DNA from: Jiangella ureilytica | Lineage (GTDB): Bacteria; Actinomycetota; Actinomycetes; Jiangellales; Jiangellaceae | NCBI RefSeq assembly: GCF_004348545.1 | Contig: NZ_SMKL01000051.1 | Span: 1-44,475 of the forward strand | DNA: 44,475 nt | Reading direction: 5' to 3' | Part shown: piece by piece, positions 2,977 to 43,747 of the stretch | Position numbering within the stretch: the stretch's first letter is position 1 | Layout of the letters: each line of letters begins with the position of its first letter | Made by a program: the position numbers and the translations under genes | Notes under the pieces: model-generated | Told to the model about the DNA's origin: nothing | What the model saw: the letters and a program-made list of their open reading frames with translations, nothing else | Databases searched by the model: none

Positions 2977-4281
2977 TCACCACACCGGCTCGGGCAGCCC
3001 CTCACCGATCCCGCGCAGCCGGTCGCGGTGCGCGACCACCCGCCGGAAGATCTCGGCCAGCACGCCGGGGAAGCGCGGATCGCGCAGGAACTTGGTGTGC
3101 ACGAAGACCGCCCGCTCGACCACCCGCGCCGACACGTCGTACGACAGCGGCACCTCGTCGGCCCAGTGCTTCCAGGCCGGGTCCTGGTGCGTGGGTGTGA
3201 AGCCGGCCTCGGCCCAGACGCCCTCGGCCGCCAGCGTCACCCGCAGGTCCTTGGGCGTCAGCCCCAGCGACGACTCGAGCGCGTCGGTGCAGGACAGGTA
3301 GAGCGAGAAGAACGGCGGGTACTCCGCGTCCGGTGGCGGGTTCCACAGCACCGGCTCCGGGAACACCGAGGGATCCTCGATCAGCGACCGGATCAGCCGC
3401 CGGTTCTCGCGCATCTGCAGCCGCGCGTGCAGCGCCCGCAGCCACTGCACCAGCAGCAGAGCGGCGGGCTGCTCGCCCATCCGCTGGTTGCCGGCCATCA
3501 TCGGCCCGACCTCGGCGAACGGGATCGGGTCGAGGCGGCCCGGTCCGGTGCCGCAGTCGGTGTCGGCGCGCATCAGCGCCGCCAGCTCCGGGTCCGAGGT
3601 CAACGTCAGACCGCCCTCGCACGACGGCGCCGCCTTGCCGCCGCCCTGGCCGGAAATCGACGCCGTCGGGGCGCCGGGACCGTCGAACCGGGCCGCACCG
3701 CCGAGCGCGTTGTCGTGGTGGACGACGACGTCGTGCTCGCGCCCCAGCGCGGCGATCCGGTCGATCGCGCCGAAGTTGCCGTACATCGTCGCGGGCACGA
3801 CGGCCAGGACGCGGTCGCCGTGCGAGGCGAGGTACGACGCCACGACTTCCTCGTCCATGGTCGCGTCGAGCTTGGCCGGGATCGGCACGATCCGCGGCGC
3901 CCGGCCCAGCTGCGCCGCAACCCCGAGCACGACGCCGTGGTGCGCCGACGCGTGCGTCAGGTCGGCGACCAGCACCTCGTCACGTCCCCGCGCCCACCCA
4001 GAGCCCCGGGCGTACAGCTGCGCCCGCAGCCCGCTCGCGATGGCCAGCGTGCCGTTGGGCTGGCCGACGCCGTACCGGTGGCCGGTGGTGTCGGCGACCA
4101 CCTGCTCGAGCACCGCCCGCCACTTCGCCGGGTGGTTGGCGTAGCCGACCCACTGCCCGCCGTCGGTGATCTCGCCGAGCAGAGCACTCTCGACGGCGCC
4201 GGTCTCCGGCCACACCGGGTCGGTCGCCGCCGTCACGACGGGCGAACCGCCCAGCACGGCCGGCAGCGCGACGCCGCTCAT
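2977..4281 (-). CDS. DegT/DnrJ/EryC1/StrS-type PLP-dependent enzyme
   Basis: A 434-residue fold-type I PLP enzyme. The PLP lysine is K216 in GQGGGKAAPSCEGG, the equivalent of the lysine followed by EGG in DegT/ArnB sugar aminotransferases; HHD at 188-190 gives the aspartate that contacts the PLP ring nitrogen. Known family members transaminate keto-sugars or keto-cyclitols. The ATG overlaps the stop of the upstream dehydratase gene by 4 bases (ATGA), so it is the last, translationally coupled gene of the six-gene operon. A member in a catabolic operon suggests an amino-sugar or aminocyclitol intermediate, but running a dehydratase or epimerase-like reaction cannot be excluded. Confidence 0.82.
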   Translation of the reverse strand: MSGVALPAVLGGSPVVTAATDPVWPETGAVESALLGEITDGGQWVGYANHPAKWRAVLEQVVADTTGHRYGVGQPNGTLAIASGLRAQLYARGSGWARGRDEVLVADLTHASAHHGVVLGVAAQLGRAPRIVPIPAKLDATMDEEVVASYLASHGDRVLAVVPATMYGNFGAIDRIAALGREHDVVVHHDNALGGAARFDGPGAPTASISGQGGGKAAPSCEGGLTLTSDPELAALMRADTDCGTGPGRLDPIPFAEVGPMMAGNQRMGEQPAALLLVQWLRALHARLQMRENRRLIRSLIEDPSVFPEPVLWNPPPDAEYPPFFSLYLSCTDALESSLGLTPKDLRVTLAAEGVWAEAGFTPTHQDPAWKHWADEVPLSYDVSARVVERAVFVHTKFLRDPRFPGVLAEIFRRVVAHRDRLRGIGEGLPEPVW

Positions 4282-5426
4282 CGCGCGCCACCCGAGGCGA
4301 ACAGCGAATGCCCGGGCGCGTACCGCTCCAGCGCATCGCCGTCGAGCCGCAACCCCAGCCCGGGCGACGACGGCACCGGCAGGTACCCGTCGGGGTCCAG
4401 CGCGAAGCCGCCCGCCGCCAGCTCGTCGATATAGGCCGACCCGGTCTTGTACTCCACCAGCTCCGTCGCCGGCAGCGCCGCCGCCAGGTGCAGGTCGGCA
4501 GCCAGCCCGACGGCGGTGTTCCAGCCGTGCGGGACGAACGCGACCCCGAACTCCGCGGCCAGCCAGGCCACCCGGCGCGACTCCGAGAGCCCGCCGCCCT
4601 TCGTGGTGTCCGGCTGGACGATGTCGAACGCGCCCGCGGCCAGGAAGCGGTGGAAGTCCTGCCGGCGGGTCAGCACCTCGCCGCCGGAGATCGGCACCCG
4701 CGACCGGCGCCGCAGCTCGACGAAGCCCTCGACGTCGTCGGGGCGCAGCGCCTCCTCGAACCAGGCGACGTCGTAGCCGGCCAGCATCTCGGCGGTCCGG
4801 ACCGCCCACGGCAGCCCGCGCGGCCAGAACGCGTCGGACCCGCCCGCGTCGACGGCCAGGAGCGCGTCGGGCCCGACGGTCTCGCGTGCCGCCCGCACCA
4901 TCTCCTCGTCGACGGCGTCGCTCACCCGGCCGAACGACCCCCAGCCGATCTTGAACGCGGTGAACCCGTCTGCCACCAGCCGGGCGAGGTCGTCCTTCAG
5001 CACCGGCGGGTCGTCCATCAGCACCGACGCGTACGGCCGCACCCGCTCGCGGTACCGCCCGCCGAGCAGCGTGCTCACCGGGAGCCCGGTGACCTGCCCG
5101 AGGATGTCCCACAGCGCGATGTCGATGCCGCTGACGGTGTGCGTGACCGCGCCGCCGCGACCCAGCCAGAACGTGTTCTCGTGCAAGATCTGGCTGACGC
5201 GGTCCGGCTCGCGCGGGTCCGTGCCGACGGCGAGCGGGCGCAGCGTGTCGAGCGCGGCCCGCACCAGCGTCTCGCTGGAGAACACGCTGCCGATGCCCAC
5301 GACGCCCTCATCGGTGTGCACGGCGACGAGCGTGTGGACGTTGTCGTCCGGGTCCAGCTCGCGTGCCCAGCCGCCCTTCGGGGTCGCGCCGCGCAGCCCG
5401 GCCGCCTTGATGTCAGTGATCCGCAT
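4278..5426 (-). CDS. Mandelate racemase/muconate lactonizing-type dehydratase (enolase superfamily)
   Basis: A 382-residue enolase-superfamily enzyme with an N-terminal capping domain (1-130) and a TIM barrel. Metal ligands appear as D193 (AVDAGG), E224 (WFEEA) and E250 (SGGEVL); H300 (PHGWN) with D273 (QPD) forms the catalytic dyad of the mandelate racemase subgroup. At the first catalytic site the usual KxK is KIG (K159, G161), so the second acid/base lysine is absent, as in the KxGWG subset of the family. Expected chemistry is proton abstraction next to a carboxylate, most often sugar-acid dehydration. Its start overlaps the end of the ceramidase-GH13 gene by 14 bases and its end overlaps the DegT gene by 4. 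Confidence 0.9.
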   Translation of the reverse strand: MRITDIKAAGLRGATPKGGWARELDPDDNVHTLVAVHTDEGVVGIGSVFSSETLVRAALDTLRPLAVGTDPREPDRVSQILHENTFWLGRGGAVTHTVSGIDIALWDILGQVTGLPVSTLLGGRYRERVRPYASVLMDDPPVLKDDLARLVADGFTAFKIGWGSFGRVSDAVDEEMVRAARETVGPDALLAVDAGGSDAFWPRGLPWAVRTAEMLAGYDVAWFEEALRPDDVEGFVELRRRSRVPISGGEVLTRRQDFHRFLAAGAFDIVQPDTTKGGGLSESRRVAWLAAEFGVAFVPHGWNTAVGLAADLHLAAALPATELVEYKTGSAYIDELAAGGFALDPDGYLPVPSSPGLGLRLDGDALERYAPGHSLFASGGAR

Positions 5427-8337
5427 GATCCCTCTCCACGTCGATGACGACCGCCTCGTCGGCGGCCAGCGCGAACTCCCCCGCCGCCACCCGCCGCGCC
5501 GGCGCGCCGGCCGGAGACGCGGTCGACAGCAGCACCCGACCGTCGACCGGCAGCGGCACTGTCGCCGGCCGGTCGGTGAGGTTGAGCAGCACGAGCTTCC
5601 GGTCGCTCCCCTCCGTGCGCCGGTACGCGAGGACCGACTCGGTCCCGGCGTCGAACGTGATCGACCCGCGGCGCACCGCCGGCGACGCGTGCCGCAGCCG
5701 GGTCAGCGCCCGGTACAGCCGCAGCATCGACTCCGGATCGCGCACCTGTGCCTCGACGTTCAGCCGCGCCAGGTCGCGCGACACCGGCAGCCACAACGAC
5801 GCCTCCGGAGCCGGCGAGAACCCGCCGTTGACGCCGTCGTTCCAGGGCATCGGGGTGCGTGACGGGTCCCGGCTCACGCCGCCGTGGGTGCGGGCGAAGT
5901 AGTCGCGCTGCCGCTCCACCGGCACCGGCTGGTCGGTCAGTCCCAGCTCGTCGGCGTAGAGCAGGCACGGCGTCGCGGCCAGCGTGAGCAGCAGGACGGC
6001 GGCCACCCGCGCCTGCGCCGGACCCAGGCGGGTCGCCAGCCGCACCCGGTCGTGGTTGCCCAGCGCGACGATCGGCCAGGCGCCGTCGGGCAGCGCCGCG
6101 TAGAGCCCGGACAGCTCCGAGCGCAGCAGGTCGGCCCGCCAGTGGGTCTCGAGCAGCCGGAACGGGAACGGCAGGTGCATGCCGGCCGTGTAGTACTCGG
6201 CCCAGTCGGCCCACGGCATCGCCTCGATCTCGGCGATCGTCAGGCGCGAACCGGGGTACTCGTCGGCGACCGCGCGGATGTCGGCCAGCGCCGTGAACGT
6301 GTCCGGGTGCCGGCGGTCGTACACGTGCAGCTGGGTGCCGAAGTCGGGATGCTGCAGGTCGAACTCGTTGTGGTTGCCGCCGGGCGCCGCCGGGTTGTCG
6401 CGGAACTCGGGGTCCTTCATCAGCATGTGCGCGACGTCGATGCGCACGCCGTCGGCGCCGCGGTCCAGCCAGAACCGCAGCACGTCCAGCAGCGCCTTGC
6501 GCACATCGGGGTTGCGCCAGTTGAGGTCCGGCTGCTCCACCAGGTGCGAATGCAGGTAGTACTGCCCCGTCGGCTCGTCGAACTCCCACACCGACCCGCC
6601 GGCCTCGCTGGTCCAGTTGTTCGGCACGCCGCCGCCCGGCGCGGGATCGCGCCAGACGTACCAGTCGCGCTTCGGGTCGTCCCGCGACGACCGCGACGCG
6701 ACGAACCACGGGTGCTGGTCGGACGTGTGGTTCGGGATGTAGTCGACGATCACCCTGATGCCGCGCTCGTGCGCCGCGGCGACCAGCCGGTCGAACGTCT
6801 CCAGCGTGCCGAACACCGGCTCGACGTCGAGGAAGTCGGACACGTCGAAGCCCTGGTCGAGCAGCGGCGAGCGGTAGAACGGCCCGGTCCAGACGGCGTC
6901 GATGCCCAGCTCGCGCAGGTAGTCCAGGCCCTGGATCAGCCCGTCGAGGTCGCCGATGCCGTCGCCGGACCCGTCGCGGAAGCTCGGCAGGTGGCACTCG
7001 TAGACGACGGCGCCACGCCACCAGTCCTCGTCCGCGCCGCCGACCAGTCCGGCGGCGCGCACGCCCGCCGCCACCAGGTCGTCCTCGATGTCGGCCCGGA
7101 ACGGCAGATGACAGGCGATCAGCGGCACTTCATAGGCCGGGTACGGCTCGGCCGGCGGCTCGTACGCGTCGTGCGTCGGCGCGTAGCCCAGCCAGCCGTT
7201 CGTCGTCGACAGCACCAGGCAGTCCTCGCCGAGCGCCTCCTGGAGCCGGCGCTTGATGCCGTGGAAGACCTCGACGTTGTAGCCGAGCAGCGTCACCGGA
7301 CCCAGCCGCAGCGCGTGCACCCACAGGGGCCGGCGCACCTCCTCGCCGGCTTCGAGCGCGGCGACGGTCCGCCGCAGCGACAGGTACGTGACGTCGTCAC
7401 CGTCGTCACGTCGTTTGCGCAGCTCGTCCAGGTCGTAGGGCGCCAGTTCGTACGGGATCTCCTGCTTGACGACGGCGACGGCTTGCGTCGCGAGCGGCTC
7501 CGCCGCCGTCAGCCCCGCCGACACCGCGTCGGCGAACCGGCCGGCGAACAGCTCCAGCGCGACCAGCGACTCCTCGGCCGGGCCGTGCGCGTAGAGCGGG
7601 TTGAGGTCGCCGAGCGCACCCTGCAGGAACACGCCCGTCGCGCCGGGGTGCGCCGCCTCGACCAGCCGCAGCGCCTCGCCCGGGTAGTCGCCGTGCACGG
7701 CCGACGTCTCCTCGCAGCAGATCACCGGGTGGCACGAGTACGAGGCGACGAACCCGGCCAGCTCGCCGCCGTGGTCGACCCGCAGCACGTGCACGCCCGG
7801 ATCGATCAGGGACGGGTCCGGCTCGCTCCACGAACCGGACAGAGCGGCGGCGTTCGTCAGGCCGCGCGACGGCAGCATCCGGTTGTGGGCGAACCGGTCC
7901 AGCGGGGCGACGGCGTGGCGCACCGTCGCCGGCGCCAGCGCGCGCACCGCCTCGACGCACGCGCGGGCGATCAGCTCCGGCAGCCGGGCGACGTACAGCT
8001 CGTCGGGCGCGCCCCAGCCGACGTTCTCGACGGTGGCCGGGCCGGAGTGGTTGTGGGTGGCGTGCACGACCACCTCGTCCGGGTGCCAGCCGGTCGCCTC
8101 GGCCACCCGCGCCGTCACCTCGTCGACCACGGCGGCCGCCACCCCCAGCAGGTCGCAGCTCACCAGCACCCAGCGGCCACCGCCGTCACCGTCACCCCCG
8201 GCCACCGCGACGGCCCGGGCGTACAGCGGCGCGTGCACCGAGGTCGCACGCCGGCGCAGGAACGGGCCGAAGCCGGCCAGCTCGACGCCGAGGGGCGGGG
8301 TGAGGTCCGTCCGGCCGAAGCCGATCCGCACGGTCAT
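5413..8337 (-). CDS. Fusion: neutral-ceramidase-like domain plus GH13 alpha-glucosidase
   Basis: A 974-residue cytoplasmic protein (no signal peptide) made of two enzymes in one frame. Residues 1 to about 432 resemble the neutral/alkaline ceramidase N-terminal domain: THNHSGP (94-100, zinc histidines), SCHP and QGALGDLNP. The serine that is the nucleophile in true ceramidases (GDxSPN) is replaced by asparagine here, so ceramide hydrolysis is unlikely. Residues about 438-974 are a complete GH13 alpha-glucosidase: DYIPNH (532-537), VRID with nucleophile D634, E703 as acid/base, NHD (761-763) and a C-terminal beta domain. The join is a short GGADED linker with no start codon. It starts 7 bases after the permease gene, which places it in the transport operon. 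It probably hydrolyses an imported alpha-glucoside; the role of the first half is unknown. Confidence 0.88.
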   Translation of the reverse strand: MTVRIGFGRTDLTPPLGVELAGFGPFLRRRATSVHAPLYARAVAVAGGDGDGGGRWVLVSCDLLGVAAAVVDEVTARVAEATGWHPDEVVVHATHNHSGPATVENVGWGAPDELYVARLPELIARACVEAVRALAPATVRHAVAPLDRFAHNRMLPSRGLTNAAALSGSWSEPDPSLIDPGVHVLRVDHGGELAGFVASYSCHPVICCEETSAVHGDYPGEALRLVEAAHPGATGVFLQGALGDLNPLYAHGPAEESLVALELFAGRFADAVSAGLTAAEPLATQAVAVVKQEIPYELAPYDLDELRKRRDDGDDVTYLSLRRTVAALEAGEEVRRPLWVHALRLGPVTLLGYNVEVFHGIKRRLQEALGEDCLVLSTTNGWLGYAPTHDAYEPPAEPYPAYEVPLIACHLPFRADIEDDLVAAGVRAAGLVGGADEDWWRGAVVYECHLPSFRDGSGDGIGDLDGLIQGLDYLRELGIDAVWTGPFYRSPLLDQGFDVSDFLDVEPVFGTLETFDRLVAAAHERGIRVIVDYIPNHTSDQHPWFVASRSSRDDPKRDWYVWRDPAPGGGVPNNWTSEAGGSVWEFDEPTGQYYLHSHLVEQPDLNWRNPDVRKALLDVLRFWLDRGADGVRIDVAHMLMKDPEFRDNPAAPGGNHNEFDLQHPDFGTQLHVYDRRHPDTFTALADIRAVADEYPGSRLTIAEIEAMPWADWAEYYTAGMHLPFPFRLLETHWRADLLRSELSGLYAALPDGAWPIVALGNHDRVRLATRLGPAQARVAAVLLLTLAATPCLLYADELGLTDQPVPVERQRDYFARTHGGVSRDPSRTPMPWNDGVNGGFSPAPEASLWLPVSRDLARLNVEAQVRDPESMLRLYRALTRLRHASPAVRRGSITFDAGTESVLAYRRTEGSDRKLVLLNLTDRPATVPLPVDGRVLLSTASPAGAPARRVAAGEFALAADEAVVIDVERDHADH

Positions 8338-8344
8338 GGTGTGC

Positions 8345-9208
8345 TCATCCTTTCGAGACGCCGGCCAGCAGGCCGCGGACGAAGTGCCGTTGCAGGGCGA
8401 CGAAGACGGCCATCGGCACCAGCACCGACAGCACGGCCGCCGACGTGAGGATCTCCCAGCCGTCGCCGCGCGAGGCGACCAGCTGCGACACCGCGACCGT
8501 CATCGGCGCGACGTCGCGGAAGCCGCCCAGGAAGATCAGCGCGACCAGCAGGTCGTTCCACGTCCACACGAAGTCGAAGATCGCCAGCGCCGCCAGCGCC
8601 GGCCGGGCCACGGGCAGCACGACCGAGAAGAAGATCTGGCCCCGGGACGCACCGTCCATCTCGGCCGCCTCGAACAGCTCGCGCGGGATCGCGGCGAAGA
8701 AGTTGTGCAGCAGGTAGATCGCGAACGGCAGCCCGAAGCCCAGGTGCACCAGCCAGATGCCGAGGAAGCTGCCGGTGAGGTCCAGCGCGCTGAACGCCCG
8801 CAGCAGCGGCACGAGCGTGATCTGGATCGGCACGATGATCAGCGCGACGATGGTCAGCAGCACCGCCGAGCGCAGCCGGAACCGCATGCCGGCCAGGGCG
8901 TACGCCGCGGCCGCGCCGGCCGCCACCGTCAGCAGGGTCGCCGGCACCACCACCGCGAGGCTGTTGAACAGGCTCAGCGCCATGCCGTCGCGGTCGAGCA
9001 CCCGGCGGTAATTCTCCAGCGTGTAGTCGCCGGGCAGCGCGAACGACTCCCACCAGCCCGACGACAACACCGCCCACGACGGCCGGAACGCGCTGACCAC
9101 GAGCCCGACCAGCGGGACCGCCCAGATCGCGGCCACACCCAGCACCACCACGTGCACGGGGATCCGCCGCCACCTCGGCGCCCGCACGCGCACCACGCCC
9201 GCCGCCAT
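8345..9208 (-). CDS. Carbohydrate ABC transporter permease (MalG type)
   Basis: A 287-residue inner-membrane permease with about six membrane spans. The cytoplasmic EAA loop is clear: EAAEMDGASRGQIFFSVVLP, where it meets the ATPase. The family partner is the MalF-type permease immediately upstream; the stop of that gene and this ATG share one base (TGATG). No ATPase gene is in the operon, so like many actinomycete sugar importers it probably uses a shared MsiK-type ATPase encoded elsewhere. It is followed after 7 bases by the ceramidase-GH13 fusion. Confidence 0.93.
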   Translation of the reverse strand: MAAGVVRVRAPRWRRIPVHVVVLGVAAIWAVPLVGLVVSAFRPSWAVLSSGWWESFALPGDYTLENYRRVLDRDGMALSLFNSLAVVVPATLLTVAAGAAAAYALAGMRFRLRSAVLLTIVALIIVPIQITLVPLLRAFSALDLTGSFLGIWLVHLGFGLPFAIYLLHNFFAAIPRELFEAAEMDGASRGQIFFSVVLPVARPALAALAIFDFVWTWNDLLVALIFLGGFRDVAPMTVAVSQLVASRGDGWEILTSAAVLSVLVPMAVFVALQRHFVRGLLAGVSKG

Positions 9209-10191
9209 CACGCGGCCCCGGTCTCGCGGCGGAACTGCCGCACGTTGGCGATCATGATCGGCACGACGGTGAGCATGAGGATCGTCGCGACCGCGCCGGC
9301 CAGCCCGTTGTCCTTGGCGGTGAACAGCGCGCGGTACATGACGGTCGACAGCACGTCGGTGCCGTAGTTGCCATTCGTCATCACGTAGACGATGTCGAAC
9401 GCCTTGAGCGCGACCACCGTCATCGTCGTCGCCACGACCACGACCGTCGGCATCAGGAACGGCAGCGTGACGTGCCGGAACGCCGCCCACTCCGACGCGC
9501 CGTCCAGCCGGGCCGCCTCGAGCAGCTCGCCCGGCACGGACCGCAGCGCCGCGTCGAAGATCACCATGGCGAACCCGGCCTGGGTCCACAGCGTCGCGCC
9601 GATCAGCGCGTAGTTGTTCGTCGCGGTGTCGACGATCCACGCGACCGGCTCGCCGCCGAGCGCCGTCACGACGGCGTTCAGCGTGCCGGTCTGCGCGGCG
9701 CCCGGCGGCTGGTAGTCGTACATGAAGCTCCAGATCACCCCGGCCGCCACGGCCGAGATCGCGATCGGCAGGAACAGCGCCGCCTTGATCAGCGCGCCGT
9801 ACCGGACCCGCTCGGACAGCACCGCGATCACCAGCCCGACCAACACCGCCAGCGACGGCAGCAGCACCACCCAGAGCACGGTGTTGCGCAGTGCGACGCG
9901 GGTGACCTCGTCGGACAGCGTCTGCGCGTAGTTGGCGAACCCCGCGAACCCGCCACTGCCGCCGTCGCCGTCGTCGACGAGGCTCCAGCCCACCGTGATG
10001 ACCGCCGGCACGGCGAGCGCCAGCAGCACCATCGCGACGGCCGGGCCGGCGAAGAGCCACGGCGCGAGTCGCCGGTAGGCGCCGTGCGGCAGCGCGGCCA
10101 GGGCGCGGTCGCCGAGGCGCAGGTAGGCCCAGCCGGCGACGACGATCACTGCCGTCGCCGCCAGCGTGAGGACGATCCGGTCGCCGATCAT
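9208..10191 (-). CDS. Carbohydrate ABC transporter permease (MalF type)
   Basis: A 327-residue membrane protein, longer than its partner, with an extra N-terminal membrane segment followed by the usual spans. The EAA motif is EAARLDGASEWAAFRHVTLP. An unusual Gly/Asp-rich stretch (DDGDGGSGGFAG) lies in the first periplasmic loop. The ATG overlaps the stop of the solute-binding protein gene by 4 bases (ATGA). With the MalG-type permease at 8345-9208 it forms the channel of the operon's importer. Confidence 0.92.
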   Translation of the reverse strand: MIGDRIVLTLAATAVIVVAGWAYLRLGDRALAALPHGAYRRLAPWLFAGPAVAMVLLALAVPAVITVGWSLVDDGDGGSGGFAGFANYAQTLSDEVTRVALRNTVLWVVLLPSLAVLVGLVIAVLSERVRYGALIKAALFLPIAISAVAAGVIWSFMYDYQPPGAAQTGTLNAVVTALGGEPVAWIVDTATNNYALIGATLWTQAGFAMVIFDAALRSVPGELLEAARLDGASEWAAFRHVTLPFLMPTVVVVATTMTVVALKAFDIVYVMTNGNYGTDVLSTVMYRALFTAKDNGLAGAVATILMLTVVPIMIANVRQFRRETGAA

Positions 10192-11543
10192 CGGGCCCGG
10201 GCGTCCTCGATGCCCTGCAGGATCGCGTCCAGGTCGCCGGGGTTCTGGGCGAACGCCAGCCCGGACTGCCAGAACGCGTCCACCTCGGACTGCGGCATCA
10301 GCGAGTTGCCCAGCGGATACGTGCCCTCGGCCGAGGTCAGGACCTCGTTGGCGCGGCGCAGGAACGGGTCCTCGTAGGCGTCGGCGGCGACCGTGACGTT
10401 CGGCGAGAGCCAGCGACCGGTCGCCGCGATGAGCGTGCCGGCCTCGGTCGAGGCGAGGTAGCGGATCAGCGCGGCCGACTGCGGCGACTCCGTGACCATG
10501 CCGAGGATCTCGCCGGAGATGGAGCGGATGCCCGGGTGCTCGGGGCTGAAATCCGGCGCCGGGAAGAAGTCGAGGTCGGTGCCCGGCTCCAGGTCCGGGA
10601 ACGCGTCGGTGATGATGCTGCCCATGAACGTGGCCTGCTGGATCACGTAGCAGCCGGGGTCGTCGGCGAACATCGGGTTGGCCGCCTGCGAGAAGTCGGT
10701 GCTGAGCACCGTCGTCGTCCCGCCGTAGACCATGCCCTCGGCGATCATCTCGCCATAGGTCTCGTAGGCCTCTTTCACCTGCGGCGACGTCCAGGGCTCA
10801 GTGCCGTCGCGCCAGGCGCGGTGGAACTCCGGCCCGGCCTGGCGGAGCAGGATCTCGTCGATGAAGTCCGCGGCCGGCCAGCCGCTCGCGGCGCCGCTCT
10901 CGAGGCCGACGCACCACGGCGTCTCGCCGGCGGCCGCCTTCTCCGCCGCCCAGGCCTGCAGCTCGTCCCAGCTCGCCGGCTCGGTGGGGCCGTCGTAGCG
11001 CTTCGGGTCGTACCAGATCAACCCGCCCAGGTTGATCGTGTTGTAGAGCCCGAACAGCTCGCCGCCGGCGGTCCCGGTCTCGAGCATGCTGGCCGGGTAG
11101 TTGGTGGTGAGCACCGCCTCGTCGACCACCTTCCGCAGGTCGACGAGGGCGCCCTGCTCAGCCAGCGCCGCCATCTCGCCGATGGCCGGCGTGGCGACGA
11201 GGTCGGGCGGGTTGCCGCCGTCGACCCGGGTCTGCAGGACCGCCGCGAAGTCGCGGGTGCCCTCGTACTGCACGTCGATGCCGGTGGCGTCCTCGAACGG
11301 CGCGATGACGCTGAGGAACGCGTCGAGCTCCTCGCCGCCCAGGACGCCGAGCATCGTGACGCCGCCGCCGAGCTCCTCGCCGCCGGCCGCCTCGAGCGCG
11401 GCCTCCTCTGCTGCGGCGACGGCGCCGTCGCCGGCCGCCGCCTCTTCGTCCGGGCGGGCGGACTCGCTGGTGCTGCACGCGGCCAGCGCGGTGACGACGG
11501 CGCCCGCCGCGACCAGCGCGGTCCCACGGTGACGCAGGTTCAT
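10188..11543 (-). CDS. Sugar-binding lipoprotein of ABC importer
   Basis: A 451-residue extracellular solute-binding protein of the family that includes MalE (cluster B). The signal peptide ends in the lipobox LAAC, so C23 is the lipidated residue; an acidic, alanine-rich linker follows before the globular part (from about residue 60). Tryptophan- and tyrosine-rich segments in the middle fit a sugar pocket. Start at ATG 11543 is set by GAGGAG at the right distance. It is the first gene of the leftward operon and diverges from the GntR regulator. Substrate cannot be read from sequence; the alpha-glucosidase downstream argues for an alpha-glucoside. Confidence 0.93.
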   Translation of the reverse strand: MNLRHRGTALVAAGAVVTALAACSTSESARPDEEAAAGDGAVAAAEEAALEAAGGEELGGGVTMLGVLGGEELDAFLSVIAPFEDATGIDVQYEGTRDFAAVLQTRVDGGNPPDLVATPAIGEMAALAEQGALVDLRKVVDEAVLTTNYPASMLETGTAGGELFGLYNTINLGGLIWYDPKRYDGPTEPASWDELQAWAAEKAAAGETPWCVGLESGAASGWPAADFIDEILLRQAGPEFHRAWRDGTEPWTSPQVKEAYETYGEMIAEGMVYGGTTTVLSTDFSQAANPMFADDPGCYVIQQATFMGSIITDAFPDLEPGTDLDFFPAPDFSPEHPGIRSISGEILGMVTESPQSAALIRYLASTEAGTLIAATGRWLSPNVTVAADAYEDPFLRRANEVLTSAEGTYPLGNSLMPQSEVDAFWQSGLAFAQNPGDLDAILQGIEDARAR

Positions 11544-11685: not shown

Positions 11686-12363
11686 ATGACCGGACTGGGC
11701 TTGCGACGGGTTCCCAGCCTGTCGCGGCGTGAGCACGTCGCCGAGATCCTGCGCGAGGCGATCACCAGCGGCCGGCTCAAGCCCGGCGACCGGCTGGTCG
11801 AGCTCGACCTCGCCGCGGAGCTCGGCACCAGCCGCGCCCCCATCCGCGAGGCGCTGCGCCAGCTCGAGCAGGAAGGGCTGGTCGCCTCCTACCCGTACCG
11901 CGGCAGCGAGGTGCTGGGCGTCTCGCAGGACGAGGTCGAGCAGGTCCTGGTGCCGATCCGCATCACGCTGGAGCGCTTCGCGTTCGGCAAGGCGCTCGAC
12001 AAGCTGGGCCACGCCGACCTCGACGCGTTGCAGGTGCTGGTCGACGACATGCTGGTGGCGGCGCGGTCCGGCGAGGCGGAGCGGCTGGCCGACCTCGACA
12101 TCGGCTTCCACGAGCTGGTCATCACCCGGTCCGAGCAGCGGCACTGCCTGCAGATGTGGAAGACCATCCAGCCGCGCGTGCGCGCCTACTTCCGCCGCGA
12201 CGCCCCGGCCCACTCTGACCCCGCCGAGGTGGCACGGCAGCACCAGGAGCTGCTCGACGTCATCCGCTCGGGCGACCGCGACGCGGTGCTCGACGCCGTC
12301 AAGCGGCACATCCACATCCACCTCGCGCCGCCGCGAGGAGCGGAGAGCGGCGATGTGGCCTGA
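11686..12363 (+). CDS. GntR family regulator, FCD (FadR C-terminal) domain
   Basis: A 225-residue regulator. Residues 10-75 are a winged helix-turn-helix with the GntR signature LKPGDRLVELDLAAELGTSR followed by APIREALRQLEQEGLV. The C-terminal FCD domain has the helical ligand/metal pattern D..FH (near 143-146), then two more histidines, the last in RHIHIH. Relatives sense sugar acids or other small carboxylates. It heads the rightward operon and lies next to the promoter of the leftward one, so it most likely represses the entire catabolic cluster. The SDR gene starts inside its last 11 bases. Confidence 0.93.
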   Translation: MTGLGLRRVPSLSRREHVAEILREAITSGRLKPGDRLVELDLAAELGTSRAPIREALRQLEQEGLVASYPYRGSEVLGVSQDEVEQVLVPIRITLERFAFGKALDKLGHADLDALQVLVDDMLVAARSGEAERLADLDIGFHELVITRSEQRHCLQMWKTIQPRVRAYFRRDAPAHSDPAEVARQHQELLDVIRSGDRDAVLDAVKRHIHIHLAPPRGAESGDVA

Positions 12364-13126
12364 GACCGTCGCCGTCACCGGCGCGGGCTCCGGCATCGGC
12401 CGGGCGGTGCTGGTGGCCGCGGCGGCGCGCGGAGCCCGGGTGGCGGCCCTCGACGTGGACGCATCGGCGGCGACGGCGGCAGCTGCGGCCGCGCGGGCGG
12501 CGGGTGCCGCCGACGCGGTGGCGGTCGCGTGCGACGTGTCGTCCGAGGCGTCGGTGGCGACGGCGTTCGCCGCGGTGGCCGACGCCGTCGGCGACCCCGG
12601 GGCGGTGTTCGCCAACGCCGGCATCGAGGTCAACGCGCCGGTGCACGCCTTCCCGGCCGCGGACTGGGAGCGCGTCGTCGCCGTCAACCTGGTCGGCGTG
12701 TTCCTCACCTGCCGCGAGGCGCTGCGCCGGCTGGTCGACGCCGGCCGCGGCGGCTCCGTCGTCTGCACGTCGTCGCCGGCCGCGTTCGTCGGTCACTCCG
12801 GCGGCGGGAACAGCGCCTACGCCGCGTCGAAGGGCGGGGTGTCGGCGTTCGTCCGGTCCGCGGCCCTCGACTACGCGCCGCACGGCATCCGCGTCAACGC
12901 CGTCGTGCCCGGCGCGACCGACACCGCGATGCTGACGGCCGGCGGTGCCGACCCGGACCGGATCCGGGCCGCCGCCGCGACCCAGGTCCCGCTCGGGCGG
13001 CTCGGCCGGCCCGACGAGGTGGCCGCGGCGGTGCTGTGGCTGCTGTCCGAGGAGTCGTCGTACGTCACCGGGTCGCACCTGGTCTGCGACGGCGGCCTCA
13101 TGGCGAAGAGCGCCAACGACTTCTGA
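12353..13126 (+). CDS. Short-chain dehydrogenase/reductase (SDR)
   Basis: A 257-residue classical SDR. The cofactor motif is TGAGSGIG near residues 8-15, D37-like acidic residue after the second strand (ALDVD) suggests NAD(H) preference, NAG follows at strand four, and the catalytic residues are Ser (CTSSPAAF) and YxxxK (YAASK). The C-terminus ends with the usual VTGSHLVCDGG. The ATG at 12353 overlaps the end of the regulator gene by 11 bases and has GGAG before it, so the two are translated together. It probably oxidises a sugar, polyol or cyclitol hydroxyl in the pathway of this cluster. Confidence 0.92.
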   Translation: MWPETVAVTGAGSGIGRAVLVAAAARGARVAALDVDASAATAAAAAARAAGAADAVAVACDVSSEASVATAFAAVADAVGDPGAVFANAGIEVNAPVHAFPAADWERVVAVNLVGVFLTCREALRRLVDAGRGGSVVCTSSPAAFVGHSGGGNSAYAASKGGVSAFVRSAALDYAPHGIRVNAVVPGATDTAMLTAGGADPDRIRAAAATQVPLGRLGRPDEVAAAVLWLLSEESSYVTGSHLVCDGGLMAKSANDF

Positions 13127-32295: not shown

Positions 32296-32450
32296 CCGTT
32301 CCCCTCACCCTGCGACCACCCATCGCCGGGCCCCCCTTTCGCGATCTTCCTCACCAAGCATCGCGGTCCGACACCCTGCCATGACGTAAGAACCCGACAC
32401 TGCTGACGGATGATCGGGGGTGGATCCTGGGGTGAGGCGAGGGGTGAGAC

Positions 32451-32456
32451 TAAGCT
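32451..32456 (+). promoter_or_regulatory. Candidate -10 box of the second large LuxR-type gene
   Basis: TAAGCT lies 35 bases before the ATG at 32492, leaving room for the GGGGAGAAGG ribosome-binding site. The 32296-32491 gap is the shared control region of two divergent regulators; I saw no strong dyad in it. Confidence 0.35.
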
Positions 32457-32491
32457 CGACCTCCGGGTGGACAGGACGGGGAGAAGGCTCG

Positions 32492-35002
32492 ATGCGGGGT
32501 GCCGAGGGTGACCGACGACGGTCTGTGCCGCGTTCAGTGCTGCCCAGACCACGCCTCGTCGACCCGCTGACCAGGCCCGACGCCGCACCGATCCTCGTCG
32601 TTCAGGGTCCGCCCGGGCTCGGGAAGTCGCTGCTGCTCGACGACGTCGCCCGGCGGCTGGGCGCCGGCCGGGTGGCACGGCTCGACCCCGGCCTCGGCGA
32701 CGCTCTCGGAGCCGCCGTCGACGACGTCCTCTGCCGCGCGGTGGGCGACTCCGCCACCGATCCGCCCGCGATCCTGCTCGACGACGTCCCCGATCCCGAC
32801 GGCGACGGCGTCCGCTCGGCCCTGCGCGCGGTGCGCGACCACGACACCCGGCTGTTGCTGAGCACCCGTACGCAGCCCGCGTGGGCGACCACCGACCGGC
32901 TGCTCGACGGCACGATCCAGATCATCGCCCTGCCGGACCTGCTGTTCGACGCCACGGAGATCCACAGGCTGGCCACCCGGTTCCGGGTCCCGCTGAGCCC
33001 CGACGACCTCGCCGAGCTGGACCAGACCACCGACGGCTGGCCGGCTCTGGTGGTGGCGGCGCTGCGGGCCCGCCGGCCCGGCTCCGCGCTGTCCGATCGG
33101 CGGCTGCGCGACCTCGTCGACCGGTTCGTCCGCGTCGAACTGCTCGGCGACCTCGATCCCGCCGACCACGCGCTGCTCACCGACGTGGCCGCGGCGCCGC
33201 GCTTCGACGCGTCGGTGCTGGCGCTGCTGCTCGAGGACCACGCCGCCGCCCCCGCCGACCCGGCCGCGCTGATCGACCGGTGGGCGACGGCGGGCCGGCT
33301 GGTTCCCGTCGCCGACGACGGGCAGTGGCGGCTGCCGCATCCGGTGCGCCGCGCCCTGCTGGCCCGCCTCGACACCGAGCACCCCGGCCGCCGTACCGAG
33401 CTGGTCACCCGCACAGTGCGGCTGCTGGTCGCGCACGACCGCACCACCCAGGCGCTGCCGCTGGTGGTCGACACCGCGCTGGACAAGGCGACGGCCGGCA
33501 GCGTGGTGCGGGCCAGCTGGGAGCCGGCGGTGGCGCGCGGCCAGGTCGACGACCTCCTGCCGGCGGTCGACACGCTGCCCGACGACGTCATCGCGGCCGA
33601 CCCCGTCCTCCTGCTGCTGTCGGCCGTCGCCGCCGTCGCGCCGCCGCCGGACCTGCAGACGTTCGCCCGCCGCGTGGCGCAGGCCGACCGGCTGGTCGAC
33701 CAGTACACGCTGAGCGGCACCCTGCTCACCATCCGCTGCTTCCAGATGGTGCTGGCCCGGGCCCGCGGCGACGCCGCCGCGGCACTCGCCGTCGAGCGGT
33801 CCGGGCAAGCGCTGATCCGGGCCGCCACCGACGACCAGCGCCGCGAACACCTCGACCGCGTCGTGTACTTCGACTGGCAGACCGGCGCCAACCGGCTCGC
33901 CGACGGCGACCTCGACGCCGCCGAGCACCTGCTGGGCCGCACGGCCATGCAGGCCCGGCACCACGGCATCGCCTGGCACGAGGCGAACAGCGAGGCGTTG
34001 CGGTCGTACACGTCGTTCCTGCGCGGCGATCTGGCCGGGGCGGCCCGGCAGGCGCGCTCGGCGGCGGACATCGCGCGGCGGCACGGCTGGGCCGACAACC
34101 AGTTCACCGACCACGTCCACCTCACCCGCGGCGCGCTCGACCTCGAGCACGGGCGCACCGCCGGCGTCGCCGAGCGGCTGCACGGCGCGCAGCGACGACT
34201 CGACGGCGACGTCGTGCCGCCGGCCGCCCGGCTCGCGCTGGCCTGGTCTGTGCTGGCGCTGCTCAGCGGCGACCGCACCGCGGCCGGGCACGCCGACCTG
34301 CTCAGCGGCGACGACCAGCCGACCAACCGGCTGCCGCTGAACCGGTTGCTGGCGACCATCGCCCGGGCGCACGCCCTGATCGCCCGCGACGAGCCGAAGG
34401 CCGCCACGGTGCTGCTCGCGTCGGCCGTGGCGCCGCCGGGGCACGTCGCCCTCCTGGCGGTGGCGCGGGCCCGCGCGCTGCTGGCCGCCGGCGACGCCGC
34501 GACCGCCGGCCGCGAGCTGGCCTCGCTCGGCGACCTCGGCACCGTGCCGCGGACCGTGCGCGCCGACGTCCATGCCCTGCAGGTCGAGTGCGCCCTGCGC
34601 CGCGGCCTCGGCACCGGCCCGCACCTGCACCAGCTGTTCGCGCTGATCGAGCGCACCGGCGCCCGGCGTCCGCTCCTGCTGCTGCCGGCGCTGCGGACGG
34701 CGGTCGTCGAGCGCGAGCTGCCGCTGCCGCCGTCGGGCCCCTTGAGCACGCTGCCGGTCGAGCTGGCCGCGCTGCACCGCGCCAACACCGGCGCCGCGCC
34801 CGCGCTGTCCGAGCGCGAGACCGAGGTGCTGCTCTCGCTCGACGGGCCCGAGACCCTCAGCGAGATCGCGAAGTCGATGTACATCTCCGGCAACACCCTG
34901 AAGACCACCGCGCGATCGCTGTATCGCAAGCTCGGCGCGGCCGATCGCTACGAGGCGGTCACCGTCGCCCGCGCCCTGGCCATCCTGCCGCCGGCGCAGT
35001 GA
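32492..35002 (+). CDS. Large ATP-binding LuxR-type (MalT-like) regulator 2
   Basis: An 836-residue regulator. Walker A is GPPGLGKS (39-46) and PPAILLDDVPD is Walker B; a MalT-like winged-helix stretch and helical repeats follow. The C-terminal LuxR HTH is LSERETEVLLSLDGPETLSE, then YISGNTLKTTARSLYRKLGA. It is of the MalT/AcoK style rather than the PikD style of its divergent neighbour, so the pair are not simple duplicates. ATG 32492 was chosen on the GGGGAGAAGG site; an in-frame start at 32420 is less likely. Confidence 0.9.
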   Translation: MRGAEGDRRRSVPRSVLPRPRLVDPLTRPDAAPILVVQGPPGLGKSLLLDDVARRLGAGRVARLDPGLGDALGAAVDDVLCRAVGDSATDPPAILLDDVPDPDGDGVRSALRAVRDHDTRLLLSTRTQPAWATTDRLLDGTIQIIALPDLLFDATEIHRLATRFRVPLSPDDLAELDQTTDGWPALVVAALRARRPGSALSDRRLRDLVDRFVRVELLGDLDPADHALLTDVAAAPRFDASVLALLLEDHAAAPADPAALIDRWATAGRLVPVADDGQWRLPHPVRRALLARLDTEHPGRRTELVTRTVRLLVAHDRTTQALPLVVDTALDKATAGSVVRASWEPAVARGQVDDLLPAVDTLPDDVIAADPVLLLLSAVAAVAPPPDLQTFARRVAQADRLVDQYTLSGTLLTIRCFQMVLARARGDAAAALAVERSGQALIRAATDDQRREHLDRVVYFDWQTGANRLADGDLDAAEHLLGRTAMQARHHGIAWHEANSEALRSYTSFLRGDLAGAARQARSAADIARRHGWADNQFTDHVHLTRGALDLEHGRTAGVAERLHGAQRRLDGDVVPPAARLALAWSVLALLSGDRTAAGHADLLSGDDQPTNRLPLNRLLATIARAHALIARDEPKAATVLLASAVAPPGHVALLAVARARALLAAGDAATAGRELASLGDLGTVPRTVRADVHALQVECALRRGLGTGPHLHQLFALIERTGARRPLLLLPALRTAVVERELPLPPSGPLSTLPVELAALHRANTGAAPALSERETEVLLSLDGPETLSEIAKSMYISGNTLKTTARSLYRKLGAADRYEAVTVARALAILPPAQ

Positions 35003-41640: not shown

Positions 41641-42485
41641 CGCCCAGCCGCCGCCTTGGAATGCGGCCCATGCGCCGTTTCGGGCGGTTTGCGGCGATGG
41701 TCGGCATTGCACTCATCGCTGTGTCCGGATGCTCCGGCGGCGACTCTCCGGAGACCTCCCCGACGGCGTCGCGGACGGCCGACGAGGGCGACGGGCCGCG
41801 GCCGCTCAGCGTCGACGAGGCGCAGCGCCTGTCGATGATGCGCTACACCAACTACACCGACGGCGTCCGCGCGCTCCGGTTCGAGGTGACCGACGGCGCC
41901 CGCACGTTCGCCGTCGACGGCTGGGCCGACTTCGCCGCGCACGTCGGCTACGCCCGCGTCAGCGAGGACGGCGGCGACCCGCAGCTGGTCGCGTGGACGC
42001 TCTCCGGCATCACGTCGCACGCACCGGTCGGGCCGTCCGGGCCATCCGGCGGCGGCGACGGCGACGGCGGCCCGCCGCTGCCGCCACCCGACGACACCGC
42101 GTGGACGTCGTCGGCGCTGAACCCGGAGCAGTCGCGGCTGCACGCGATGCTCGCACTGGTCTTCCAGGCCGCCAGCGACCGGCCCGACAACCCCCTGCTG
42201 CTGCAGCAGACCGACGCCCGCTGGCTGCGCTCCGACGAGGTCGGCGGCGTCACCGTCGACGTCGTGGCAGGCCCGACGGCCGACCGCGCCTACGACCCCG
42301 CGACCGCCACCACGGCACCCGACGGCAGCGATGCGACGGTGCGCTACTGGGTCGACGACGAGAGCCGGCTGCGGCGTCTCGAGGCCCGGCTCGGCGCCGG
42401 CGGTGACTGGACGGCGGTCGACTTCGCCGACGCGCCGGGCGTGCACTTCGCCGGCGAGTTCCTCGAGACGACGGCGAGCGGCTGA
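41634..42485 (+). CDS. Putative lipoprotein, LprG/LolA-like size and style
   Basis: A 283-residue exported protein. The basic start and hydrophobic stretch end in the lipobox VSGC (cysteine near 33), followed by a Ser/Thr-rich linker. The globular part has no motif I can name; the alternating strands (ALRFEVTDGARTFAVDGWAD, then TVRYWVDDESRLRRLEARLG) recall the LprG/LolA lipid-carrier fold, at low certainty. A Gly/Pro stretch lies near residue 140. ATG 41634 fits a leaderless transcript; ATG 41616 is the longer alternative. Its stop shares one base with the ATG of the DyP peroxidase, so the two are coupled. Confidence 0.82.
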   Translation: MTTPSRRLGMRPMRRFGRFAAMVGIALIAVSGCSGGDSPETSPTASRTADEGDGPRPLSVDEAQRLSMMRYTNYTDGVRALRFEVTDGARTFAVDGWADFAAHVGYARVSEDGGDPQLVAWTLSGITSHAPVGPSGPSGGGDGDGGPPLPPPDDTAWTSSALNPEQSRLHAMLALVFQAASDRPDNPLLLQQTDARWLRSDEVGGVTVDVVAGPTADRAYDPATATTAPDGSDATVRYWVDDESRLRRLEARLGAGGDWTAVDFADAPGVHFAGEFLETTASG

Positions 42486-43747
42486 TGACCGAGCCCGACG
42501 ACCGGACACCGGACGGGAACGTCCCCGCGCAGCCGGGCCGCACCCGGCGGCGCGACCTGCTGCGCGGGCTCACCGCCGCCGGCGCCGCGGCGGGCTTCGC
42601 GGGCGTGGCCGGGCTCGCGGCCGGCCGGGCCACCGCCGACGACGGCGACCTCCGGCGGCCGGCGGCATCGCCCGCGACCACCGTCCCCACGCCGTCGGCC
42701 ACGTCGTCGCGGCCCGACCCCGTCGACCCCACCGGTGTCCACCAGGCCGGCATCGTCCGGCCCGGGACCCCGCAGCCGCACGGACTGCTCGTCGTGCTCG
42801 ACCTGACGACGGCGCCGGCCGCCACGCCCGCCTTCCGTGACGCCGTCCGCGCCCTGTGCCGGCGGCTCGGCACCGCGGTCCTCGACCTGACCGGCGAGCG
42901 AGCCACCGAGGCCGGGCTGCTGGACGGGCCGGGCGACGTCACCGCGACGGTGGGGCTGGGCCCGCGGGTGGTCGCCGCGTTCGGCGCCGAGCTGCCCGGC
43001 GCGGCGCCGCTGCCGCCGTTCGCGCAGGACGCCGCCCTCGCGCCGGAGCGGACCGGCGGCGACCTGCTGCTCGCCGTCCACGGGTCGGACCCGAACGACG
43101 TGCAGCGCGCGGCGAGCTGGCTCACCGCCCAGGCCGCACCCGACGCCGTCGCCCGCTGGTCGCAGCGCGGCTTCCGGGCGCCCGGCACCGGCACCATCGC
43201 CCGCAACCCTCTCGGGTTCCACGACGGTGTCATCGTCCCGCACGACGCGGCGGAGCAGGACGAGCACGTGTGGATCGCCGACGGCCCGTTCGCCGGCGGC
43301 AGCATCTGCGTCGTGCGCAGGCTCCGCCTCGACGTCGCGCGGTTCACCGCCGAGCCGGTCGCCCGCCAGGAGGCGGTCATCGGCCGGCGCCGCACGGACG
43401 GCACACCGCTGTCCGGCGGCGGCCCCACGGGCGAGGTCGACCTGCTGGCCAAGACGCCCGACGGCCAGTACGTCACGCCCGCGCGGTCGCACGTGCGGGC
43501 CGCGCACCCGTCGGTCACCGGTAGCGCGCTGATGCTGCGCCGCGGCTACGCCTTCGACGACGGCGGCGACGACCACGGCCTGCTGTTCGTCTGCTTCCAG
43601 CGCGACCTGCGCACGTTCGTCCAGACCCAGTTCCGCCTCGACGAGGTCGACGACCTCGGCGAGTACGTCACACCCACCGGCAGCGCGACCTTCCTCATCC
43701 TCCCCGGCTTCGACGCCGGCCGCCCCCTCGGCGTCACCCTGCCGTGA
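42485..43747 (+). CDS. Dyp-type peroxidase with Tat signal
   Basis: A 420-residue heme peroxidase. The twin-arginine signal RTRRRDLLRGLTAAGAAAGF exports it folded; a Ser/Thr/Pro linker runs to about residue 80. The DyP signature GFHDG (GxxDG) supplies the catalytic aspartate; HVRAAHP holds the proximal heme histidine, and the distal arginine is in CFQRDLRTF. DyP enzymes oxidise dyes, phenols or porphyrins with peroxide, and Tat-exported ones can work with iron uptake systems (EfeB), but no EfeU or EfeO gene is present here. It shares an operon with the lipoprotein before it. Confidence 0.93.
   Translation: MTEPDDRTPDGNVPAQPGRTRRRDLLRGLTAAGAAAGFAGVAGLAAGRATADDGDLRRPAASPATTVPTPSATSSRPDPVDPTGVHQAGIVRPGTPQPHGLLVVLDLTTAPAATPAFRDAVRALCRRLGTAVLDLTGERATEAGLLDGPGDVTATVGLGPRVVAAFGAELPGAAPLPPFAQDAALAPERTGGDLLLAVHGSDPNDVQRAASWLTAQAAPDAVARWSQRGFRAPGTGTIARNPLGFHDGVIVPHDAAEQDEHVWIADGPFAGGSICVVRRLRLDVARFTAEPVARQEAVIGRRRTDGTPLSGGGPTGEVDLLAKTPDGQYVTPARSHVRAAHPSVTGSALMLRRGYAFDDGGDDHGLLFVCFQRDLRTFVQTQFRLDEVDDLGEYVTPTGSATFLILPGFDAGRPLGVTLP

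Follow-up and report, generated by a model that had tools for sequence, protein, structure and literature searches.

Does the stretch of Jiangella ureilytica DNA that we have analyzed (44,475 nt, hereafter the window) contain a gene which truly joins two enzyme families in one chain, and what could the resulting protein do?

The fused gene

Positions 5413–8337 of the minus strand form a single open frame with an ATG start, coding for 974 amino acids. The product matches two Pfam domains: PF04734 at residues 4–233 (54.5 bits, gathering cut-off 32.1), with only profile positions 2–233 of 509 covered, and PF00128 at residues 452–891 (362.7 bits). The in-frame, single-chain fusion reported in the initial annotation is thus confirmed. 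The two halves are joined by a linker, residues 433–438 (GGADED, positions 7024–7041, minus strand), which contains no stop codon, as had been noted. Species differ in its length by whole codons. The further statement that there is no internal start codon is not quite accurate: In-frame GTG codons are found at residues 422 and 426 (positions 7060–7074, minus strand), just upstream of the linker. The codon for residue 426 is GTG or ATG in all nine fused genes, GTG422 is absent from one of them (L011), and the window gene has GAGG 8 bases ahead of GTG422. A GH13-only product, made by internal initiation at one of these codons, is possible, although GC-rich DNA commonly uses GTG for valine.

According to the initial annotation, separate genes in close relatives would mark the fusion as a sequencing artefact. 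One relative, Phytoactinopolyspora alkaliphila, does have two genes, and three Jiangella genomes have no full-length match. Nevertheless, the same unbroken chain is found in 9 of 12 genomes of Jiangella, a genus of soil bacteria, that of the window included, with linkers differing by whole codons, so the fusion is neither a chance event nor an assembly error. An artefact is hardly conceivable, and we have rejected it. Comparison of the window gene with its eight fused relatives (Nei-Gojobori) gives dN/dS values of 0.23–0.27 for the first half and 0.22–0.29 for the GH13 half. The fusion is real and maintained by selection, which is purifying for both halves.

The combination of PF04734 and GH13 is a new domain architecture. 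It was absent from the open-licence literature matches listed and from passages of PMC4443539. In nine further PF04734 proteins encoded by long frames, scanned together with one neighbour gene, no domain but PF04734 reached E ≤ 0.001. Three of these proteins are below the gathering cut-off, two (L126 and L128) end at a stretch edge, with their C-termini outside the view, and the long frames left out of the scan include L122, L127 and frames in G504 and G739. Of 709 matching plasmid records, none covers over 80% of the fused chain, and the ten listed correspond to the GH13 half only. No relative of the N-terminal half is encoded in the 30 pattern-fitting stretches from viral contigs.

The two halves

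Pfam and alignments identify the N-terminal half (residues 1–432, positions 7042–8337, minus strand) as a short PF04734, or ceramidase-like, hydrolase domain. A profile-profile alignment of fused and split N-terminal halves with full-length ceramidases covers residues 3–405 with a probability of 98.3%, which becomes 99.9% when the short PF04734 group is added. In this comparison the remainder of the half, beyond the Pfam match, aligns to the family as well. Structure predictions, built from only 14 and 6 sequences, are both of low confidence, with mean pLDDT values of 54.1 and 34.2.

H95 and H97, initially annotated as zinc histidines, are present, and alignment shows that the metal-ligand positions of the family are intact: H95, H97, H203, E356 and Y385. 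H95, H203, E356 and Y385, together with H97, match the zinc-ligand and neighbouring-His positions of ceramidases. In the Pseudomonas aeruginosa enzyme, the zinc ligands are H97, H204, E411 and Y448. The five positions and the GH13 catalytic residues are identical in all nine fused genes. This comparison and that of dN/dS used all eight other fused genes, while the first ligand alignment took five of them. The ligands are also kept by short PF04734 relatives: H97 and H203 in 23 of 23, H95 in 22, and E356 and Y385 in 22, with one row showing a gap. The source of gaps in this alignment is L106, a partial sequence. Twelve of the 15 full-length ceramidase loci (L067–L081) were aligned, since frames were picked by a THTH or HTHS motif. 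This choice biases the counts for H95 and H97 in these proteins and does not affect those for H203, E356, Y385 and the serine.

N246, in the motif GDLNP, occupies the Ser position of GDxSP, the catalytic Ser of ceramidases. The fused genes have Asn in eight cases and Asp in one. This substitution had been considered distinctive, a suggestion that we have rejected, since the column varies across the whole short PF04734 group: 7 Asn, 6 Ala, 5 Ser, 3 Asp, 1 Trp and 1 Gly in 23 relatives. The 12 full-length relatives have 10 Ser, 1 Thr and 1 Val.

The C-terminal half (residues 438–974, positions 5416–7026, minus strand) is a GH13 alpha-glucosidase, according to Pfam and structure-database matches. 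Its catalytic residues D634, E703 and H762/D763 are all present, in agreement with the initial annotation, and the same residues appear in all 13 GH13 rows of our alignment.

Gene neighborhood

The fused gene is preceded on the minus strand by genes for a sugar ABC solute-binding protein (10188–11543), permease 1 (9208–10191) and permease 2 (8345–9196, start approximate). Its end is overlapped by the ATG of a gene for an enolase-superfamily (MR/MLE) dehydratase-like protein of 382 aa (4278–5426, minus strand), which in turn overlaps a gene for a DegT/DnrJ/EryC1-family PLP aminotransferase of 434 aa (2977–4281, minus strand), whose PLP lysine is presumably K216, judging by motif. A GntR/FCD regulator (11686–12363) and an SDR oxidoreductase (12344–13126, start approximate) are divergently coded on the plus strand. 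From its gene content, this looks like an operon for alpha-glucoside catabolism. A PfkB-family kinase follows the cassette in two loci (L040 and L041), the second of which also has a KDPG/KHG aldolase.

DegT and the N-terminal half do not always travel together: P. endophytica has DegT, and the N-terminal half was not found there, while two other genomes have DegT away from the cassette. No clue to the substrate was found in DegT relatives outside the family (G057 and G135). A PF01425 amidase gene after DegT in P. endophytica is a single-case hint of acyl chemistry.

Cassettes without the fusion

Four loci from Propionibacteriales/Nocardioidaceae MAGs have the order SDR, solute-binding protein, permease, permease, GH13, dehydratase, and in a short contig of an Acidimicrobiia MAG the order is permease, permease, GH13, dehydratase. 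None of these five distant loci has a match to the N-terminal half, and only 21–130 bases separate permease 2 from GH13. That such outgroup cassettes do without the N-terminal half speaks against the function proposed below, and so do the independent occurrence of DegT and the mixed neighbours of other short PF04734 genes.

Living species show three states of the cassette: The hydrolase gene is absent, overlaps its neighbour, or is fused to it. On the simplest account, the gene would first have been inserted into an older cassette, in the space that separates permease 2 from GH13. Its end would later have run into the GH13 gene, as in P. alkaliphila, and in Jiangella the two would finally have fused.

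Possible function

We consider, with a probability of about 0.55, that the fused protein is a cytoplasmic two-domain enzyme, a metal-dependent hydrolase plus an alpha-glucosidase, which belongs to an operon for the breakdown of alpha-glucosides. One such compound would be taken up by the ABC importer, and the GH13 half would release the glucose at its end, by the retaining mechanism standard for such enzymes, as the intact catalytic residues suggest. The first half may bind metal at the conserved positions, and its most likely role would be to hydrolyze an amide or ester linkage, either in the same imported compound or in the aglycone. After these steps, the SDR and the dehydratase could supply a De Ley-Doudoroff-like route for sugar acids. 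The sequence of events initially proposed, removal of glucose followed by action on the released part, is possible.

It is very unlikely that the chain combines a true ceramidase with a glucosidase for the breakdown of glucosylated ceramides. The PF04734 score exceeds the cut-off and the metal-ligand positions are conserved, but the chain scores 29.4 bits against the neutral-ceramidase profile NF041649 (NCBIfam), whose curated cut-off is 1200, and we have rejected a true ceramidase on this result. Besides, the N-terminal half has about 430 residues, compared to 646 and 688 in two solved ceramidases, no signal-peptide-like start was seen at the N-terminus by eye and hydropathy, and the gene sits in a sugar-import operon. 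Moreover, glucosylceramide is a beta-glucoside, whereas GH13 enzymes cleave alpha linkages. Almost certainly, ceramide is not the substrate of the fused protein, and the profile score, the absence of a visible signal-peptide-like start and the operon setting do not support the ceramidase-like substrate suggested initially.

The remaining alternatives concern the role of the first half. Each half might work on its own within a common pathway, without a shared substrate or channelling. The fusion would then do no more than equalize their amounts, possibly with extra GH13 from an internal GTG. This is possible, if rather unlikely: The short linker of variable length, the overlapping genes of P. 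alkaliphila and the GTG or ATG at residue 426 favour it, but conservation of the fusion in nine genomes fails to separate it from a shared substrate. It is improbable that the first half is a lactonase, opening an SDR-made sugar lactone before the dehydratase acts, with a fusion that reflects co-expression. SDR and dehydratase do recur as cassette partners, and no lactonase family was found among the cassette proteins scanned, but the outgroup cassettes have both enzymes without this half, and we know of no lactonase within PF04734. Equally doubtful is a first half which is catalytically dead, or a scaffold stabilizing GH13, after loss of the serine abolished its activity. The residues replacing Ser in the fused genes, and its presence in most full-length relatives, agree with this. 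Against it, the metal-ligand positions are invariant in the fused genes, dN/dS is as low as that of GH13, and short relatives keep the ligands despite their variable Ser position.

A more specific form of the two-domain enzyme is tentative and rather improbable: An acylated, soluble alpha-glucoside with an amide or ester group could be opened by a serine-less zinc amidase or esterase of the short PF04734 type and passed to the GH13 site of the same chain, with DegT handling the freed amine. If true, this would be the first function for a branch of the ceramidase family.

Comparison with known proteins

The N-terminal region can be aligned with neutral/alkaline ceramidases (PDB 2zws and 4wgk, E-values 4.3e-8 and 7e-7), with which it has the metal-ligand positions in common. 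It differs from them in its shorter length, its replaced Ser and the absence of a visible signal-peptide-like start. The nearest solved structures for the other half are the GH13 alpha-glucosidases 3wy1, 6aav and 7voh (387–426 bits), matched over the whole catalytic domain. Their chains have 528–544 aa and lack a PF04734-type half.

Short PF04734 proteins in the sampled Actinobacteria have 368–465 aa (start codons picked by hand), 24–40% identity to the N-terminal half over the aligned stretch and the same ligand positions, but they are unfused and have other neighbours. These neighbours are of several kinds (SIS, ROK, sulfatase, sugar ABC, Gfo/Idh). One neighbour tally drew on 56 open frames, chosen by their codon GC in 13 of 20 stretches. 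One such protein is a paralogue in the same genome as the window (L096, 6746–7987). Its gene adjoins an acyl-CoA-synthetase-like gene, a hint of acyl chemistry. The name ceramidase is passed on to short PF04734 proteins, although these can be far removed from the enzyme itself, as found here. A further comparison is with the pair of genes in P. alkaliphila (L038, 5974–7344 and 7341–9053): The proteins are orthologous, with the same order in the same operon, but are coded by two genes with an ATGA overlap. A short PF04734 protein tied to the alpha-glucosidase of an operon, by gene order and then covalently, thus offers a biochemical handle on the role of the short group.

The fused gene and its conservation

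The fused gene (5413–8337, minus strand) codes for a single chain of 974 residues. Pfam finds PF04734 in residues 4–233 (54.5 bits, with a cut-off of 32.1) and PF00128 in residues 452–891 (362.7 bits). GH13 alpha-glucosidases are the solved structures nearest to the whole chain (3wy1, 425.6 bits). When the first half is searched alone, the neutral ceramidases 2zws (4.3e-8) and 4wgk (7e-7) are the sole matches at E<=10. AlphaFold models are of low confidence, with a mean pLDDT of 54.1 for the full chain, where most of the first half is below 50, and of 34.2 for the first half alone. All residues cited in the initial annotation are present in the chain. The annotation's statement that the frame lacks an internal start needs a correction, as in-frame GTG codons at residues 422 and 426 are possible starts.

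A full-length match in one stop-free open frame is found in nine of the 12 genomes sampled from the genus, including its own, with 87–100% identity, which bears out the in-frame fusion proposed initially. The other three genomes have GH13 paralogues and short matches only, no full-length match. Linker length differs between species by whole codons. Nei–Gojobori dN/dS values, comparing the window gene with its eight fused relatives, are 0.23–0.27 in the first half and 0.22–0.29 in the second. At family level, 11 of 22 genomes match at E<=1e-90, the nine fused ones and two Phytoactinopolyspora. Among 393 genomes of the class, 10 contain the first half at E<=1e-30 (nine fused, one separate), and 12 contain the GH13 relative at E<=1e-140. 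The joining of a short PF04734 hydrolase to its operon's GH13 enzyme is real, conserved and lineage-specific.

Identity of the first half

PF04734 matches in the class sample fall into two groups, full-length ceramidases of 341–621 bits, one of which is divided between two frames, and weak hits that reach 57 bits at most; the phylum sample adds intermediates of 80–119 bits which match both profile ends. The first half belongs with the weak, short PF04734 proteins, and we have rejected its identification as a ceramidase. A profile-profile alignment extends the PF04734 relationship to residues 3–405 (probability 98.3%). The zinc-ligand and serine roles, with the P. aeruginosa numbering, are those of neutral ceramidase. 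H95, H97 and H203 were paired with ceramidase residues from the match to solved structures, E356 and Y385 from the alignment with full-length ceramidases and the profile-profile alignment.

Across 42 aligned proteins these five ligand columns hardly vary: one short row has Gln in place of H95, and one row is gapped. The D217 column has Asp in all 42, the D62 column Asp in 38 and Glu in four. The serine column (N246 in the fused chain) has S10 T1 V1 in the 12 full-length rows, N7 A6 S5 D3 W1 G1 in the 23 short rows and N in all seven fused or split rows; among the nine fused genes, eight have N and one D. Since this column is so variable in the short group, where N is the commonest residue, Asn is ordinary there and not the distinctive change that had been suggested. 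The ligand columns being nearly invariant, selection therefore keeps the metal site, not the serine.

Among other PF04734 proteins, four short ones lie within a 19.5-kb stretch (G128:C2:240500–260000). Four proteins of 976–1058 amino acids (L116, L117, L118 and L119) have a weak PF04734 match, no other Pfam domain and large regions without any domain match.

Operon and origin

The fused gene is preceded by genes for a sugar ABC-type solute-binding protein and two permeases, with no ATPase gene for the importer among the frames scanned, and by divergent GntR/FCD and SDR oxidoreductase genes. It is followed by an enolase-superfamily gene, whose best NCBIfam match is galactonate dehydratase (189.5 bits, under the 311 cut-off), and then by a DegT-family aminotransferase gene. 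In outgroup cassettes a PfkB-family kinase follows (L040, L041), in L041 also a KDPG/KHG aldolase. Judging from protein families, these genes read as alpha-glucoside import and catabolism: The sugar would be imported, hydrolyzed, oxidized, dehydrated, phosphorylated and split by an aldol cleavage. Elsewhere, the window has a Dyp-type peroxidase gene (42485–43747, plus strand) and an 860-amino acid frame (32420–35002, plus strand), in which a C-terminal GerE domain of the LuxR type is the sole Pfam match at E<=1e-5.

In Phytoactinopolyspora alkaliphila (L038) separate genes code for the two halves, arranged as in the fusion. The first-half gene stops at 7344 and the GH13 gene starts from an ATG at 7341, an ATGA overlap. 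The first protein ends nearly where the fused first half does; in the stand-alone GH13 protein, some 33 residues ahead of the conserved WWRG have no counterpart in the fusion. Other loci lack the first half. In four Propionibacteriales/Nocardioidaceae MAG loci (L039–L042), GH13 and dehydratase genes come with an SDR, a solute-binding protein and two permeases, and on a short Acidimicrobiia contig (L043) they come with permeases; in Actinomadura mexicana (L044) they are accompanied by an SDR and by different permeases. The simplest order of events would be insertion of the first-half gene, overlap with the GH13 gene and fusion. The P. endophytica locus has GH13, dehydratase, DegT, GntR and SDR, and neither the first half nor importer genes were found in that stretch; its genome shows no first half at E<=1e-30 among the four candidates scored per genome. 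Loss of the first half in this species, or transfer, is a possible alternative to plain insertion, overlap and fusion.

Possible function of the first half

Known PF04734 members cleave an amide, and by analogy the first half may be an amidase or an esterase. A stand-alone short PF04734 paralogue in its own genome (L096 6746–7987, C113:98332–99474) adjoins an acyl-CoA-synthetase-like gene (4774–6744). SIS_2 genes lie beside or overlap short PF04734 genes in three genomes (L107 5762–6511, L109 2023–2808, L115 6300–7103), a recurrent pair which hints at amino-sugar metabolism. Another short gene (L100) has a ROK protein and a Gfo/Idh oxidoreductase as neighbors; together, the SIS, ROK and Gfo/Idh neighbors hint at amino- or acyl-sugar chemistry. 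In P. endophytica, where the first half was not found, a PF01425 amidase gene (L037 10280–11419) directly follows DegT. Against an amidase or esterase, however, the supporting neighbors are single observations in mixed neighborhoods, and DegT is also present where the first half is absent. A lactonase is possible, as is an inactive scaffold.

We have searched for the same architecture in samples of one phylum, where some of the long PF04734 frames were scanned, in a plasmid collection and one open-licence library, and its rarity refers to these samples. A chain which joins PF04734 to GH13 is a new domain architecture.
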